Shown: positions 3,125-32,666 of the stretch, piece after piece | How the letters are laid out: each line of letters starts with the position of its first letter | How positions within the stretch are numbered: position 1 is the stretch's first letter | IMG/VR virus record: IMGVR_UViG_3300008448_000349 | Span: 1 to 33,280 of that record | DNA: 33,280 nucleotides | Strand: one strand, 5' to 3' | From: a virus | Position numbers and translations under genes: made by a program | The notes under the pieces: model-generated | What the model was told of the DNA's origin: nothing | Databases searched by the model: none | The model's input: only the letters and a program-made list of their open reading frames with translations

Positions 3125-5212
3125 TTAAATTTCTAAATAAATAGGTAAATCGTCTGTTTTTCCAGACCGTAATCCTAACAAACGAGAACTAACACTTAAA
3201 ATATCCGCTTTATTATGGAAAATCTTTATTCCTGTTTTTTGACCTAATCTGAGCCTATCTATCATGTAGTTAGGAATTCCCATCTTAAAATTATAGTATT
3301 GATTAATTGTCATTCTCTTATATACATCTGTCCATAGTAATCCCTCATCCACATAATAGATACTATTCAAAGCAGATGCTATGTTTATCGCCGCTCGGAA
3401 ACCATGCGCGGTTCTAGTAGGTTCAGAGCCATCTGTAAACAAGTTTGTTAAAGTTGCAGTTGCACTAGAGAACACGGCCCTCATTCCCGTCTCAGAATAC
3501 TCCCCAGTTATATCTTCATTAGGGTATGCTAACTCTAGTGATGCAAAATAATGATCTTTTAGATTAGGATTGTAATATTGCGGATCGGGGCTTAATGTAA
3601 AGCTCAAAGTTCTAGTATTCCAATCAGTTAATCTAGAATAACCTCCGTAAAATAATAAATTATATTTATCTGTTGGTTGTAAAACAATACATTTAGGAAT
3701 TCGTCTAACTAAAATTGGGCCTGTAGCATCATCCCCAAATTGATGTAAGCTAAAATTAGTAAACTGTAGTGTATAAGTAGAATCATTACTAATGTGACCT
3801 AGTATGGGATCGTTGTGATCTACAGGTAAAACTAACCAAGGATACGGTTTAAATTGTATATTTTGTTGGATTATATTAGGATCTGTTTGTATGGTATAAT
3901 TTGCTTTTGTTTTTCTTGTGAATAAAGATCCATCTGAAGGGACATCTTCTATAGTATCTTTGTTTATTATCAAAACATACTGTAGCGGTCTTTCCGCAGA
4001 TAAATCATAATTTAACTCTAAATTTGATGCAGCAGCAGAACTCACAGTCAAAGTTACATTATACTTAGACTGTGCATCAAATAAGCATGCTTGCTCTACA
4101 TTATTATTGATGGTATAAGCTCGATCTAAGTCATTATCAGATGGAACTATTTCATGCCCAGATTCAGTAAGTACACACGCATCGTATCTGTATTCTAGTA
4201 AAGAAACTCCAGTGGCTTCATACCCTGATGTAACTACAGGTATTTTTTCTGAATTTGGAATTTTTAATCTTGTACTAGTACCAGATGAATCTACTATTAA
4301 AGTTTTGGCATATATATCTTCTGGCAATACATACCAAAGTTTTAATAAATCCTTTTCGCCTGTGGTATAGTTATCAGGATAAAGAGATATCTTTTCTGAT
4401 TCTACTCTATCCATAGCCCTATTTATATCGGTAGATACGGCTGTAATTGTAGATGTAGATTGAGTTAATTTTAATAAATTATTAACTCGTGAAGCCAAGA
4501 TTTCCTTTACAGTTTTTCCGTAAGTAGCTGTAATAACCGCATTAGCTAAATTAGTGGATGCATTTATCTGTACGAGTGCGGCTCTAATAGCCAAATTTAA
4601 CGCATACCTTTGATTTACCTTAGGTAATGTTCCGTTTATCGTCCTTACTTTAAAACTTTTATTTATTATTGCTTCGCCTGCTCGTCTTCCGTCCGGTAAA
4701 TATAAATTATATAATATGTTTTTAATTTCTTCCCGAATAGAATTTTTTACATACTCGTCTCTAAGGTGAGTTAAACTTTGATTACTTCCCGATAAAGATA
4801 AATCAGTTTGATCAGTTAAATTATAAATTGAAGAGTCTATGACAGGTCCAAAAATTTCTATTTGAGAAAAATTTGGAGTTGTTGGTTCATATTTAGGTGA
4901 ATTTATAGTGGTTGGAAAATAACCCTCATCAAATATTAAATCACCTAAATCAGTTCTTGGATAATTTTCATATTGATAATCCTCGGGAGTATCAGGTATT
5001 TCTGGGTCAATATTTCCGCCACCACCCCCGCCCTCACCTTCTTCAGGGGGTATTTGTGTTTCCGGATATCTTGGGCGAGTAGGATATCTTGATATTATAA
5101 TATCCTCTCCGTCATCCTCTGGTGTTACAACTGCGCCTCCATTAATTACAAATACACCCTCAGGAACTTCTCCCGGTTGAAACGGCAGGCAAGAGTCGAT
5201 AGGATTAGCCAT
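3125..5212 (-). CDS. Large virion structural protein, unrecognised
   Basis: A 695-residue protein I cannot assign. The first 120 residues are Pro/Gly/acid-rich and low in hydrophobics, with a run of six glycines (about 61-66), probably a flexible linker. A helical part (about 150-270, including DEYVKNSIREEIKNILYNLY) follows, then a long beta-rich part with many aromatic and Asn/Thr residues to the C-terminus. There is no signal peptide or membrane segment. It sits between the 705-residue structural gene (8-base gap) and the PAAR gene (1-base gap) in the baseplate operon, so a baseplate-periphery or tail-fibre role is likely but inferred. Confidence 0.65.
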   Translation of the reverse strand: MANPIDSCLPFQPGEVPEGVFVINGGAVVTPEDDGEDIIISRYPTRPRYPETQIPPEEGEGGGGGGNIDPEIPDTPEDYQYENYPRTDLGDLIFDEGYFPTTINSPKYEPTTPNFSQIEIFGPVIDSSIYNLTDQTDLSLSGSNQSLTHLRDEYVKNSIREEIKNILYNLYLPDGRRAGEAIINKSFKVRTINGTLPKVNQRYALNLAIRAALVQINASTNLANAVITATYGKTVKEILASRVNNLLKLTQSTSTITAVSTDINRAMDRVESEKISLYPDNYTTGEKDLLKLWYVLPEDIYAKTLIVDSSGTSTRLKIPNSEKIPVVTSGYEATGVSLLEYRYDACVLTESGHEIVPSDNDLDRAYTINNNVEQACLFDAQSKYNVTLTVSSAAASNLELNYDLSAERPLQYVLIINKDTIEDVPSDGSLFTRKTKANYTIQTDPNIIQQNIQFKPYPWLVLPVDHNDPILGHISNDSTYTLQFTNFSLHQFGDDATGPILVRRIPKCIVLQPTDKYNLLFYGGYSRLTDWNTRTLSFTLSPDPQYYNPNLKDHYFASLELAYPNEDITGEYSETGMRAVFSSATATLTNLFTDGSEPTRTAHGFRAAINIASALNSIYYVDEGLLWTDVYKRMTINQYYNFKMGIPNYMIDRLRLGQKTGIKIFHNKADILSVSSRLLGLRSGKTDDLPIYLEI

Positions 5213-11244: not shown

Positions 11245-13263
11245 TTATACGAAATACAATCTCCAACGAATAGTGAGATTTTGATGATTCAAAAGACCAG
11301 CATTAGTTGTATAATCTTTAATTTTAACTATATTCTCATTAAATACTTTTTTAGCAAAAAGTTTATATTTTAAAGGTTCTACATAGGTCCCAGTTTGTTC
11401 TGGGTATCTACGGAAGGTATATGGTGGATTAAATCCAGAATTTAAATTTGCAGGCAGGTCATATGACCAAAGACCCATTTGAGTTATGCCACCGTACAAA
11501 TTAGCCATAGCGCAATCATTTCCAGCAATAGTAATAATATAAATTAATTCTCCATTACTCGAAACATTTACAGAGGATGTAACCAATCCGGATAGTGGAT
11601 TAGTCCCGCTAGTTGTGTTAACATATCCTCGGAAATCCATTGACCCTACAGTATTAAAAGTTCCAGATAGTGACGCGCTAACCACTGTCGTATATGGTTG
11701 AATTCCGCTAACTAATCGAACTGTTATACCTCCAGACGGAGGATATGCTCCATCTAACAATGCACCTACGGTAGATGGTGTTACTTCTATTACTTCTCCT
11801 AAAATGTTTATTTTGTTTACTACGGTGTCCTTGAATGGTATTAAATTAACATTTTGTCTATAATTTTCGCTGGTATAGAATGACTCATTTTCTTGTTGTG
11901 TGGTTGTTTCTGTAGAATAGAATGGAACTGTAGATGTATATAATCCCACAGCATTTTTATAATTTACAACCAAATCATAAAACTTTCTTTCACCAGTATC
12001 ATCATTTGGTATTGTTAATAAATTTCCCGGATTAGATTCTAATAATCCCCACCCCCAAATTTGACCATCGTTTAAAACTGCAAAACTTTGATACTCACCT
12101 GCTGCAACTTTAGTAGTTACGCCTTGAATAAACGATGGAACATTACATTGTCCTTCCGTATTTCTTCCATAAGCGGAAACAACCCCCGCAGAAGTAAGGA
12201 GTAAGGTATGATATCTTCCAGTAGCAGCATCAATAATACTAGAAGGTGCTGTTGGACCAAATGTAACCTGCCCTTGGTCATATCCGAAAGCAGGAGCGTT
12301 AACTAACATCCATCCAGAAACAGATTTATCAAACAAAATTGCAACAGCATGAAAAGAAGGCCAGTTAGATATTATTTTACTTACATTACCTTGAATTGCA
12401 CTAGGTGCTTGTTGACAAGTTACAGTTGAGACTCCCCAAGCGGATACAGTAGCATCTGTTTTTTGAACTACGAAGATTTGGTATGCTCCTGCTATTGCAG
12501 AAACTGCTGAAGAATAAGTTTGTGGATAATTCCTAAGTCCTGCATTTGCGCCCCAAGAGGATAAATTTCCTACATCTGTAATAGCAAAAGAAGTAGTTAG
12601 TGTTGCACCAACAGCTTTGCATGGAGGCAAATTAGGTTTGTTTAACTGACCAGCGGCATTTGTTCCTCCCCAACAAGATACATCTCCACTTGTTGTTAGT
12701 GCGACAAAGTGTTGATATCCTGCCGATATAGAGGAAACAGTTGATATTGGGTTTGGTATTTGATATAATGGGTATGTAGAGTTATCGCCCCAACCAAGTA
12801 AAAAGCCACTAGTATTTACATAGCTTATGATTGTTTCTACGATTGTGTCTAATACTTCTTGTGGTAATGTTACTCCATCAAAATTAACTAAATAACGATC
12901 TGTAGGTACTGGAGCATCAGGCAAATAGTAAGAGGGGGTGTAAGAAGAGGCTCCGGATACCGCAGTAGCAGACACCCATACTTGCCCAGAGGCTTCTCTT
13001 GCGTATTTAGAAGGTCCTGAATTTTGATGTGCGTTGTAATAATAATGTAAAGGAGCTTTTCCAAAAGATATGGCTCTAATAGTAAAGTTAGAAACATCGT
13101 AGATAGAAGACGCAGAGCTAATTGTATCTCCATCAGGGGGCAAGGTCATGAGCGTAGATATGATCTCCCCTGCACCGTCAACAATCATATTGTTGTCAGT
13201 ATATACGACCTGCTCCTCTGGAGTGCCATAATCTTTTATTAGTTCTACTTTTCCCTTAATCAT
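11245..13263 (-). CDS. Tail protein with inserted RCC1-like beta-propeller
   Basis: A 672-residue protein. Residues 1-70 and about 590-672 correspond to the 192-residue neighbour. Residues 154-408 form an insert of RCC1-type repeats: W-G motifs at 158, 198, 237, 276, then W318, Y365 and W405, spaced 39-47 residues, with AG-x-x-x-x-F-V-A-L and GQ-x-N-x-P elements such as ISAGYQHFVALTTSGDVSCW and AAGQLNKP. Seven units would close a seven-bladed propeller. RCC1 propellers bind proteins or surfaces, so a role in host recognition or in branching of a fibre is plausible. The start overlaps the upstream stop by 4 bases and has AGGA in front. The family is clear; the function is inferred. Confidence 0.8.
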   Translation of the reverse strand: MIKGKVELIKDYGTPEEQVVYTDNNMIVDGAGEIISTLMTLPPDGDTISSASSIYDVSNFTIRAISFGKAPLHYYYNAHQNSGPSKYAREASGQVWVSATAVSGASSYTPSYYLPDAPVPTDRYLVNFDGVTLPQEVLDTIVETIISYVNTSGFLLGWGDNSTYPLYQIPNPISTVSSISAGYQHFVALTTSGDVSCWGGTNAAGQLNKPNLPPCKAVGATLTTSFAITDVGNLSSWGANAGLRNYPQTYSSAVSAIAGAYQIFVVQKTDATVSAWGVSTVTCQQAPSAIQGNVSKIISNWPSFHAVAILFDKSVSGWMLVNAPAFGYDQGQVTFGPTAPSSIIDAATGRYHTLLLTSAGVVSAYGRNTEGQCNVPSFIQGVTTKVAAGEYQSFAVLNDGQIWGWGLLESNPGNLLTIPNDDTGERKFYDLVVNYKNAVGLYTSTVPFYSTETTTQQENESFYTSENYRQNVNLIPFKDTVVNKINILGEVIEVTPSTVGALLDGAYPPSGGITVRLVSGIQPYTTVVSASLSGTFNTVGSMDFRGYVNTTSGTNPLSGLVTSSVNVSSNGELIYIITIAGNDCAMANLYGGITQMGLWSYDLPANLNSGFNPPYTFRRYPEQTGTYVEPLKYKLFAKKVFNENIVKIKDYTTNAGLLNHQNLTIRWRLYFV

Positions 13264-29862: not shown

Positions 29863-30862
29863 TGATATCTCCTGCTTCATTAAAGACTACCTGACAACCA
29901 AATTCTCAGGGAAATTTAAATTATCTAGTAATGGTAGGGAATTGATGATGAATTCCCCTGTAGACCCAACTGATAGAAAGCAGCACTTTTCTATCAATCT
30001 GGAAACAGGTCTGTGGCAGGACTTCCGTAAGGGCGAGAAGGGTAACTTCTACTTCCTCTATAGTTATCTAGAGGGGATCACATACAAGCAAGCTATTCAT
30101 CAAATCCAGATCCGTAGCCTGTACAAGCAGCCAGTTCAAGTCTCAGCTATTGAAGCTCCTTCAAGCTCTATACAGGAAGAGATTAAGAACTTCGTATCTG
30201 TGAAAGAAGATAAGCAACCAGAGTCGGAACTAGAGATCGCTGCTTACTTGTATCTAAGTGACAGAAAGATCCTTAATGATAAGTATCCCTTCTTTGTTGC
30301 AACTGCTGGACGGTTTCACGGGCGCGTGATCATCCCATTCTGGAGAAACGATGATTTGGTTTATTTCCAAGCTCGTTCTCTCATCGGGCAAAAGCCTAAG
30401 TACCTAAACCCCGGATCAGAGTTTGGCCTCAAGAGCAAAAGCTACCTTTTCCCATTCGATCTATCGGAGAAGTATGTAGTGATTTGTGAGGGTCCAACTG
30501 ACGCAATTTCTCTACAACTACAGGGCGTAAACGCAACTGCAACGCTAGGATGCTCAATCAGTCCTACTCAATCCAGAATGCTTGCAGGCTTCCAAGGTCG
30601 TATTATTGTAGGGTACGACAATGATGAAGCAGGAATTAATGGACTGAACAAGCTGCATCAAACTATCAATTGTCAGCGATTCCTTAATATCAGCTACTGC
30701 TTTCCAGACAAGAAATACAAGGACTGGAACGAAATGCATGTAAATAATATTAACCTCAGACAGTATGTAAAAGAGAACACCCATGAGTATGACCCACAGG
30801 TGTTCAAAATCCAGAACGAAATTTATAATATCAATTCACTATCAAGTTTAAATAATCACTAA
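29855..30862 (+). CDS. 61: DNA primase (DnaG core/TOPRIM, gp61-like)
   Basis: A 335-residue primase, close to T4 gp61 (342). The catalytic core reads GRFHGRVIIPFWRND (152-166), then Y-F-Q-A-R-S-L and KPKYLNPGSEFGLKSKSYLF, as in DnaG. The TOPRIM motifs follow: E212 in ICEGPTDAISL and D255/D257 in VGYDNDEAG. It would make RNA primers for lagging-strand synthesis with a gp41-type helicase. The N-terminal part aligns in pattern with the CHC2 zinc ribbon (SPVDPTDRKQHFSINLETG, W-Q-D-F-R-K-G-E-K-G-N) but the zinc-binding cysteines are absent. The start has no clear ribosome site. The 3' end overlaps the convergent structural gene by 32 bases. GC content reaches about 50% in places, against about 25-35% in structural genes. 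Confidence 0.9.
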   Translation: MNIDISCFIKDYLTTKFSGKFKLSSNGRELMMNSPVDPTDRKQHFSINLETGLWQDFRKGEKGNFYFLYSYLEGITYKQAIHQIQIRSLYKQPVQVSAIEAPSSSIQEEIKNFVSVKEDKQPESELEIAAYLYLSDRKILNDKYPFFVATAGRFHGRVIIPFWRNDDLVYFQARSLIGQKPKYLNPGSEFGLKSKSYLFPFDLSEKYVVICEGPTDAISLQLQGVNATATLGCSISPTQSRMLAGFQGRIIVGYDNDEAGINGLNKLHQTINCQRFLNISYCFPDKKYKDWNEMHVNNINLRQYVKENTHEYDPQVFKIQNEIYNINSLSSLNNH

Positions 30863-31760
30863 GGATTACTTGATTCAACACCGAATATTTCACTTGTATT
30901 TGATAAGCACCTGTCAAAGGTCCAAATGTTCCATTCAAGGTTGTTGGGAGTGTGTATAGAGCATTAGTATCCCAATTGAATATAATTGTGTTGTCTGAAG
31001 TAACATCAGTGTATGCGGAAGTATTTGCAAAAGCACTTACTGTTACGCGAGCGGGAAGTGTATAATCATCGTTCAATTTTACGATTTGAACTGATGGATT
31101 AACTATAACTGAATCTTTAAATAAATTCTTTATAGAAGAATCAATGTCTTTGTTTCCAAGGTTAAACTCTGTCATTACAGTTAGATCTACTTTAGATCCT
31201 AGTTTAACATTCTTGTTTCTAAGTTTATTTGATGTAGTAAGTAGAATAGGCTCTGTAACAGAGAATAGCGTATCATCATGTAATGTGAATTCATTGATGT
31301 ATACTGCGTACTCTGAACCTTGAGCCATTTTGACGGTCCAAACATCTATATAATTAGTTGTAGTGCTTGCTTGGTTAGGTATTGTTGTTCCGTTATAGAT
31401 TCCAGACAAGTCTACTGATCCATCCAATACTACTGCATATTGACCTGTTCCTAGTTTATAGATACCACTCGCGCCCGTGGAATAGTTGGATGTGTTAAAT
31501 GCAGTATTGGTTGTAGTAACTGACGAATTTGCAAAATTCATCAGAATAACACCACTAGCTAAGATTGGATCTATTAAGTTATCATCATCTAAAATTGTGT
31601 TAGGGCTTGTGTTAGCAGTAAGTTTGAAGATGCTTACAGAGCTAATTTGATATGGATCTTGATATTGTCCATCATTTACAAAGAAAGACCGGAGTGCAAC
31701 TTTTTGTAACACCCCCGGACGATTATGTCTTTCAACTACATCTATGTTGTTTATTTTCAT
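30831..31760 (-). CDS. Beta-rich virion structural protein
   Basis: A 309-residue protein with a conserved-looking start, VVERHNRPGVLQKVALRSFF followed by V-N-D-G-Q-Y-Q-D-P-Y-Q-I-S-S-V-S-I-F. The remainder is Thr/Ser/Asn-rich with many strands and ends VSAFANTSAYTDV...YQIQVKYSVLNQVILSDYL, which suggests Ig-like or fibronectin-like sandwich domains. There is no enzyme motif. The ATG lies one base after the stop of the -1 frameshift frame and behind AAGG, so translation is probably coupled to it. The 3' end overlaps the primase 3' end on the other strand. A tail or head decoration role is possible; the exact function is unknown. Confidence 0.65.
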   Translation of the reverse strand: MKINNIDVVERHNRPGVLQKVALRSFFVNDGQYQDPYQISSVSIFKLTANTSPNTILDDDNLIDPILASGVILMNFANSSVTTTNTAFNTSNYSTGASGIYKLGTGQYAVVLDGSVDLSGIYNGTTIPNQASTTTNYIDVWTVKMAQGSEYAVYINEFTLHDDTLFSVTEPILLTTSNKLRNKNVKLGSKVDLTVMTEFNLGNKDIDSSIKNLFKDSVIVNPSVQIVKLNDDYTLPARVTVSAFANTSAYTDVTSDNTIIFNWDTNALYTLPTTLNGTFGPLTGAYQIQVKYSVLNQVILSDYLNLIVN

Positions 31761-31761
31761 A

Positions 31762-31947
31762 TTAGCCCTTACTTCTTCTTTCTAGCTCATCCATCTCTCG
31801 CTTATATATTTGCAAGAAAAGAACTCGTTCTCTTAAAGTGGTAGACTTAACATCTTGATAAGTCATTCCAACCTTGCTTATTAATATATAGGCTTGGCTT
31901 AATAGAGTATCTAAATCTAAATTCTCTATTAGCTCACGGTAAAAAAA
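31762..31947 (-). CDS. Frameshift (-1) extension of the gp26-like gene
   Basis: A 59-residue open frame in the -1 register, entered at the T7 run at 31941-31947. It is closed by TGA directly before the T7 run and has no ATG near its beginning. It encodes YRELIENLDLDTLLSQAYIL, then I-S-K-V-G-M-T-Y-Q-D-V, then LRERVLFLQIYKREMDELER. The G-(M/I)-(T/S)-Y-x-x-(V/A) plus R-E-R helix resembles C-terminal parts of tail assembly chaperones. Slippage after FF would give a 301-residue fusion (242 + 59). It fills the gap up to one base before the next gene. An internal ATG at 31866 with AAGG nearby offers a 34-residue alternative product. Confidence 0.75.
   Translation of the reverse strand, partial: FFYRELIENLDLDTLLSQAYILISKVGMTYQDVKSTTLRERVLFLQIYKREMDELERRSKG
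31897..31947 (-). promoter_or_regulatory. Programmed -1 ribosomal frameshift signal
   Basis: The signal has three parts. A slippery heptamer T TTT TTT sits in correct phase (GAT TTT TTT ACC, bases 31947-31941). A 7-base spacer occupies 31940-31934. A stem-loop follows with arms GC-TAATAGAG (31933-31924) and CTCTATTA-A-GC (31907-31897): 8 perfect pairs, one bulged A, 2 more G-C pairs and a 16-base loop. These distances match the classical -1 frameshift architecture. The zero-frame stop TAA lies inside the 5' arm. Confidence 0.78.
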
Positions 31948-32666
31948 TCAGGGCCTATGGGTAGCCCAATTATGTTAGGCTGAGTACATTTTTCACAATC
32001 AAAACGAACCGTTGTTTGTACCCCGTACTCCTTAAGGCTGATTATATCTGTTATAGCATGCATATCTTTTAATGGTACTCTAGGATCACTGATAAATTTA
32101 GAAATAATAACAGGATCCTCTAAACCATTAATTGTGGTAATAAACCGCCAAACATTATCAAATAACCCAGTATCACTGGTTAGGTATTTTTCATCATCTA
32201 TTGTTGGAATCCTAACCTTAATCTTTAATTTAGTTACTGGGAGTTCGATTTCTGTTTCCGCCTGTATTTTATCATCTAGGAAATTAACAGGTAGGTCAGA
32301 CAAATTAAAATTAAGTTTATTCTCAGAAGCACACTTAACACAATTAACTGTCGCAGAATAACTATCACCGTAAGATATTTCTCTTAGTTTTAAGATAAGA
32401 TAAAGTTTATCTATAATTAGCAAATCTTCTATATTTACACCTTTTAAACATCTGGATAGAAGCACATTAATTACATCAGCCTTATTTTTCTTAGCCAATA
32501 CCATAGCCTTTTCATCCTCAAAGGTCATGGGCTTTAAGGTTATTCTGGCATTATTGTAAAACTTACTCTTAGAAGGAACTTCTACTACAGTTTCTATTTC
32601 TGTAGGCAAATTAGCAAACACATCATCCAAGTTAAAGGGTTTTCCTTCCGGAATATTATTAATCAT
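31929..32666 (-). CDS. 26: Baseplate hub assembly / tail chaperone protein gp26-like
   Basis: A 245-residue protein of the T4 gp26/gp51-type baseplate family. Typical features are a start with VVEVPSKSKFYNN and ITLKPMTFEDEKAM, a helical part with INVLLSRCLKGVNIEDLLII, then R-E-I-S-Y-G-D-S-Y and two Cys pairs, C109-x-x-C112 (NCVKC) and C224-x-x-C227 (DCEKC), which probably bind one zinc. T4 gp26 (208 residues) helps assemble the hub with the tape measure. It is the first gene after an exact late-promoter box; the ribosome site is weak (AAAGAA). The last codons contain the slippery T7 run that gives access to a 59-residue extension, as in other tail assembly chaperone pairs. Its location near uvsW recalls the T4 order uvsW-uvsY-25-26. 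Confidence 0.83.
   Translation of the reverse strand: MINNIPEGKPFNLDDVFANLPTEIETVVEVPSKSKFYNNARITLKPMTFEDEKAMVLAKKNKADVINVLLSRCLKGVNIEDLLIIDKLYLILKLREISYGDSYSATVNCVKCASENKLNFNLSDLPVNFLDDKIQAETEIELPVTKLKIKVRIPTIDDEKYLTSDTGLFDNVWRFITTINGLEDPVIISKFISDPRVPLKDMHAITDIISLKEYGVQTTVRFDCEKCTQPNIIGLPIGPDFFTVS

Follow-up and report, generated by a model that had tools for sequence, protein, structure and literature searches.

Our results indicate that programmed -1 ribosomal frameshifting most likely makes two tail assembly chaperones, a short one of 245 aa and a long one of 301 aa, in a T4-related phage with a contractile tail, and we assign this reading a probability of about 0.9. The DNA analyzed, referred to below as the window, is the whole 33,280-nucleotide stretch of the viral record IMGVR_UViG_3300008448_000349. 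The analysis shows the slip site with its phase and conservation, selection acting on the -1 frame, kinship of the extension with the gp51 family and, in relatives, a gene position typical of tail assembly chaperones; a chaperone-like fold is predicted. That slippage takes place, how efficient it is and that the products act as chaperones are inferences from these data.

Layout of the proposed frameshift cassette

All parts of the cassette lie on the minus strand. The gp26-type gene (32666-31929; PF12322, phrog_150) has 245 codons, encodes the putative short tail assembly chaperone and ends with GAT TTT TTT ACC GTG AGC TAA. Its slippery heptamer for -1 tandem slippage, T TTT TTT (31947-31941), is in phase four codons ahead of the stop, and a TGA in the -1 frame lies directly upstream, so that the -1 frame opens at the slip; the heptamer is an X XXY YYZ site in the correct phase, and no -1 stop interrupts it. 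The final three 0-frame codons, ACC GTG AGC (31932-31940), contain a 7-base spacer and precede the stop codon of the short product, TAA (31929-31931). A stem-loop downstream of the slip (31895-31936) is a candidate stimulator of slippage. The -1 frame extension (31762-31947 with its stop; FFYREL...RRSKG) would form the C-terminal, gp51-type domain of the long product. It comprises 59 sense codons past Phe-Phe and ends with a TAA at 31764-31762, one base short of the ATG at 31760 of the next gene (30831-31760; 309 aa), which lies outside the cassette; the extension fills the gap between the two genes. The predicted products share their N-terminal part and have 245 and 301 residues. The sequence bore out all the details observed in a preliminary description of this DNA, which had presented the run as part of a complete -1 cassette.

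The stem-loop that the preliminary description had placed after the spacer was also recovered by RNA fold prediction, with a free energy of -12.2 kcal/mol and a z-score of -4.4; none of 200 shuffled sequences folded as well. It is plausible that this hairpin acts as a local stimulator of slippage in the window. Five TTTTTT[TC] sites occur on the strand of the gene in the 33 kb, three of them in slip phase within genes, and only the site in the gp26-type gene is both in slip phase and close to a gene end on that strand of the window. As a separate observation, the same motif is found 39 times on the other strand against 5 times on the main coding strand, T runs being scarce in codons.

In the mechanism that we propose, the majority of ribosomes would stay in the gp26-type frame and release the 245-aa short chaperone, while a minority would pause at T TTT TTT, probably aided by the hairpin seven bases downstream. 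Both tRNA-Phe would then re-pair one base back, TTT to TTT in the P and A sites, and the -1 frame would be read for 59 codons to give a 301-aa long chaperone with an extra domain that is probably helical. If the two products behave like lambda gpG/gpGT, the part common to both would coat the tape measure protein, the extension would recruit tail tube subunits, and both forms would depart before the virion is completed.

Elsewhere in the window, we observed a gene for a tail-fibre-like protein with RCC1-like repeats (11245-13263; GWGDNSTYP...AGYQHFVALTTSGDVSCWG), a small protein that has runs of lysine as well as an EF-hand-like stretch (1715-2212; DRNKNGKLDKQDF) and, adjoining the latter gene, an extremely acidic protein (2261-2746).

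Family, predicted fold and gene neighborhood of the gp26-type protein

The short form matched PF12322 with an E-value of 1.5e-20 (74.3 bits, the curated Pfam cut-off being 24.5, covering profile positions 6-218 of 219) and phrog_150 with an E-value of 7.2e-25, in keeping with the original assignment to the gp26 type. An AlphaFold2 model of this form (pLDDT 79.5) was compared with the PDB using VIA-align, and its two best matches were 2ob9, the HK97 tail assembly chaperone, and 3klu, YqbN, which we take to be a member of the XkdN-like family of tail assembly chaperones (TACs). Each had a Z of 6.7 and spanned 90-93 residues at about residues 9-104 of the model, and the next PDB match had a Z of 4.3. 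Foldseek alone gave nothing significant for this model (E about 1), and no solved structure related by sequence to the gp26-type protein was found. The predicted fold may thus be that of a TAC; a Z of 6.7 is modest and, with the Foldseek result, lends support to this likeness without deciding it.

The slot between the tail tube and tape measure genes is the usual place of tail assembly chaperones. In SP-15, LIS04 and immuto, the gp26 gene lies between a gene for the tail tube (or tail completion) protein and one for the tape measure or a large tail protein. In the window itself, Pfam and PHROGs profiles recognized no tape measure gene, and the chaperone gene is followed by the 309-aa gene. In each of the 26 clade A loci listed, a homologue of this 309-aa gene borders on the extension stop or overlaps it, and the encoded protein is possibly a tail protein. 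The gp26-type protein also has two invariant CxxC pairs, C109/C112 (window 32331-32342) and C224/C227 (31986-31997), and its model gave a weak match (Z 3.6) to a LysW-like zinc ribbon; gp26 chaperones may bind zinc.

We considered whether gp26 might instead be a permanent hub subunit, in which case the shift would yield a minor structural variant. Databases label the gp26 family "baseplate hub", and early genetic work assigned T4 gp26 to the hub (PMC3004832), but in the same T4 review gp26 and gp51 are counted among the chaperones of hub assembly, and gp51 is reported to be absent from the particle. The TAC-like model, the pairing of a short with a long form and the location of the gene in relatives, between those for the tail tube and the tape measure, likewise point to a TAC, and we regard the hub subunit explanation as improbable. 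The chaperone reading of the preliminary description is thus upheld by the structural matches of the model, by the gene position in relatives and by the gp51-related extension described below.

Conservation of the slip site and of the -1 extension

A single-sequence scan of viral contigs returned no relatives of the gp26-type gene, but profile scans did find them, and one such scan, in which the slip site played no part in selection, gave 80 loci at 37-76% identity. T TTT TTT or T TTT TTC was present at the same two Phe codons in all 80, as was a homologous -1 extension, and in nearly all of them the 0-frame stop lay exactly three codons past the slip. A genome scan gave only three loci, all in MAGs, one of which had T TTT TTC and a -1 extension; none pointed to a sure host.

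We then counted codons in 61 non-redundant -1-type genes, a set whose definition included the slip site, so that binomial figures, which also ignore shared ancestry, are to be read with this in mind. The base preceding the run was T in 61/61 genes (AAT 37, GAT 16, others 8). AAT was used in 37/37 and GAT in 16/16 cases before the run, against 64% and 74%, respectively, elsewhere in the same genes, and the first Phe codon was TTT in 61/61 at the site against 69% elsewhere. The second Phe codon was free (TTC 42, TTT 19). A fixed preceding T, a fixed TTT and a free second Phe codon are the codon pattern that X XXY YYZ tandem slippage demands. Exactly three sense codons separated the slip from the 0-frame stop in 52 of the 61 genes. 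The slip site is not a chance product.

The extension was analyzed for selection in all three frames. Between the window and its three nearest relatives, the -1 frame had a pN/pS of 0.10-0.30, whereas values for the other two were 0.9-2.6; across all tested pairs it was 0.04-0.58 in the -1 frame, which was free of stops, and about 0.7-4 in the others. The -1 frame of the extension is under purifying selection, and the other two frames are not.

In a rival reading, gp26 and the downstream product would be separate proteins, the latter started internally at the ATG at 31866 and coupled to gp26 termination. AAGG lies shortly before this ATG, S-PM2, P-HM1 and S-SSM7 have the extension annotated as a gp51 gene of its own, and in Vibrio K474 and Serratia Kevin, where the slip site is absent, the downstream genes are annotated separately. 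However, of the 52 clade A members scored, only 4 keep the Met at 31866 and 47 have Phe there, and an ATG occurs within the first 25 extension codons in only 5 of the 61 -1-type genes; because of this, an internal start is not how the extension is generally reached. It would also leave unexplained the conservation of T TTT TT(T/C) at the nucleotide level and that of the -1 frame beyond the slip, and we consider an internal start quite unlikely. Transcriptional slippage, in which RNA polymerase would add or drop a U on the T run to give an edited mRNA, fits the homopolymeric run of seven T in the window but is very improbable, since 42/61 members have only six T and then C in a phase-locked T TTT TTC that suits tandem tRNA slippage, T runs so short slip poorly in transcription, and RNA structure past the site exceeds background in the -1 clade but not in the +1 clade described below.

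For the -1 frameshifting that we favor, the role of downstream structure was assessed across relatives. The region downstream of the slip had a clade mean z of -1.9, compared to -0.2 to -0.4 upstream. Covariation of the hairpin pairs did not exceed that of shuffles across the clade, no consensus fold emerged for the clade that contains the window, and the hairpin is lost in two relatives (L093 and L095). A conserved hairpin as a family feature was rejected, as the 10-bp stem was 81% paired, no better than shuffles. Thus, the stem-loop stands as a strong predicted fold of the cassette in the window, but not as a structure conserved in relatives.

The window's extension alone matched nothing in Pfam or PHROGs, and that of an L007-type relative reached phrog_634 (E 0.0015). 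With hhalign, the window's extension matched its counterpart in the +1 clade (P 96%) and S-PM2 gp51 (83%); a direct profile comparison with T4 gp51 was weak (P about 7%), and the link to T4 passes via S-PM2. By these profile comparisons, the extension is related to the gp51 family.

Predicted frameshift states across the gp26 family and known systems

T TTT TTC/T followed by a -1 extension was found in the cyanophages S-PM2, S-CAM1, P-HM1, S-SSM7 and S-N03, as well as in pf16, ACP17, Stenotrophomonas Bhz51, Vibrio VH7D, Aeromonas P19, Agrobacterium OLIVR6 and Pseudomonas Paride, so that the sampled carriers include cyanophages and KVP40-like Straboviridae. T4 gp26 and gp51 both matched PF12322, the C-terminal part of T4 gp51 is phrog_634, the family that includes S-PM2 "gp51", and the T4 gp26 gene has no slip site. 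Judged by these matches, T4 genes 26 and 51 are duplicated short and long copies that do without a shift. Across the gp26 family, the predicted frameshift is the usual state. T4 therefore looks like a derived case, in that it carries two copies of the gene where most of the gp26 genes sampled have a phase-locked slip site.

These results modify three points of the preliminary description. That gp26 and gp51 are separate proteins in T4 is true, but the two are PF12322 paralogues, gp51 being the long form; the predicted -1 slippage, proposed for one distant T4 relative, is a feature of the family and not of a single relative; and the stem-loop is not kept as a structure in relatives.

A 2016 review described G/GT-type frameshifting as widely conserved in long-tailed phages "except T4" (PMC5009743). 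As cited in PMC10885494, Vladimirov et al. 2022 described T4-like phages in which the short chaperone and a fused long one have genes of their own, and as cited in PMC12846349 the same study described poly-T -1 signals in T4-like TAC genes. Going by these citing papers, gp26 and gp51 as T4-like chaperones with poly-T -1 signals appear to have been reported already. Among the named public records that we fetched, none annotated a joined CDS at the gp26 end. As each of those examined either lacks the long chaperone or splits it, many "gp51" or hypothetical genes deserve re-annotation as a joined CDS.

The extension lies in the +1 frame in a sister clade, which comprises about 70 loci and includes the isolates Flavobacterium phage immuto and Microcystis phage Mel-JY01. 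In our set of gp26 gene ends this clade makes up most of L011-L086, plus L088 and L089. The genes of this clade end with GAC TTT TTT TGG CCT or a close variant, the T run being one base further downstream, and their extensions are homologous to the -1 extensions (hhalign score 47.6, against at most 17.4 in 60 column shuffles). Among 43 Asp codons before the run, 42 were GAC and 1 was GAT, whereas elsewhere GAC made up 36% and GAT 64%. The +1 clade avoids the base that permits a -1 slip, which would keep the -1 frame closed. A -2 shift was rejected as the general mechanism of this clade, as TTC TTT TGG variants (3/69) should allow +1 re-pairing of the P-site tRNA but not a -2 shift.

The gp26 genes of SP-15, LIS04 and GXN1 have XCC CGA TTY followed by a homologous +1 extension; in their loci (GXN1, L001; SP-15, L003; LIS04, L005) this extension, at about locus position 3640-3740, has no start codon. 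The SP-15-like phages probably have an unannotated +1 frameshift of another type, through XCC CGA. In a tree of 66 sequences, four frameshift states needed four changes in all, the deepest joins being unsure, and the window fell within a well supported -1 clade of 17. We think it reasonably likely that one family switched the direction of its frameshift at the same conserved Phe-Phe codons, from -1 to +1 (or -2) in the sister clade. The switch to +1 is the part of these results that is most likely new, and the two clades offer a natural comparison in which the direction of the signal changes while protein and position are constant.

Compared with known systems, the window resembles T4 in having a predicted PF12322 short and long pair, the long form of which has a gp51-related C-terminal domain; it differs in that T4 has duplicated, divergently placed genes and no shift, whereas in the window one gene and a -1 slip would make both. 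The gp26 and "gp51" of the Kyanoviridae (the five cyanophages named above) have T TTT TTC in the same place and a -1 extension, but are distant in sequence, fall on a separate branch of the tree and have an extension that is annotated separately or not at all. Lambda gpG/gpGT and P2 E/E' share with the cassette proposed for the window a short form and a minority long form made by a -1 slip near the gene end. However, family scans gave no sequence link between these chaperones and the window gp26, their slip sequence differs, and the window gp26 has a larger body that carries the two CxxC pairs. Finally, HK97 gp13 (2ob9) and YqbN (3klu) are alike to the window protein over the matched N-terminal part of the model, at 11-13% identity, but the window protein has an additional half that is partly zinc-ribbon-like.
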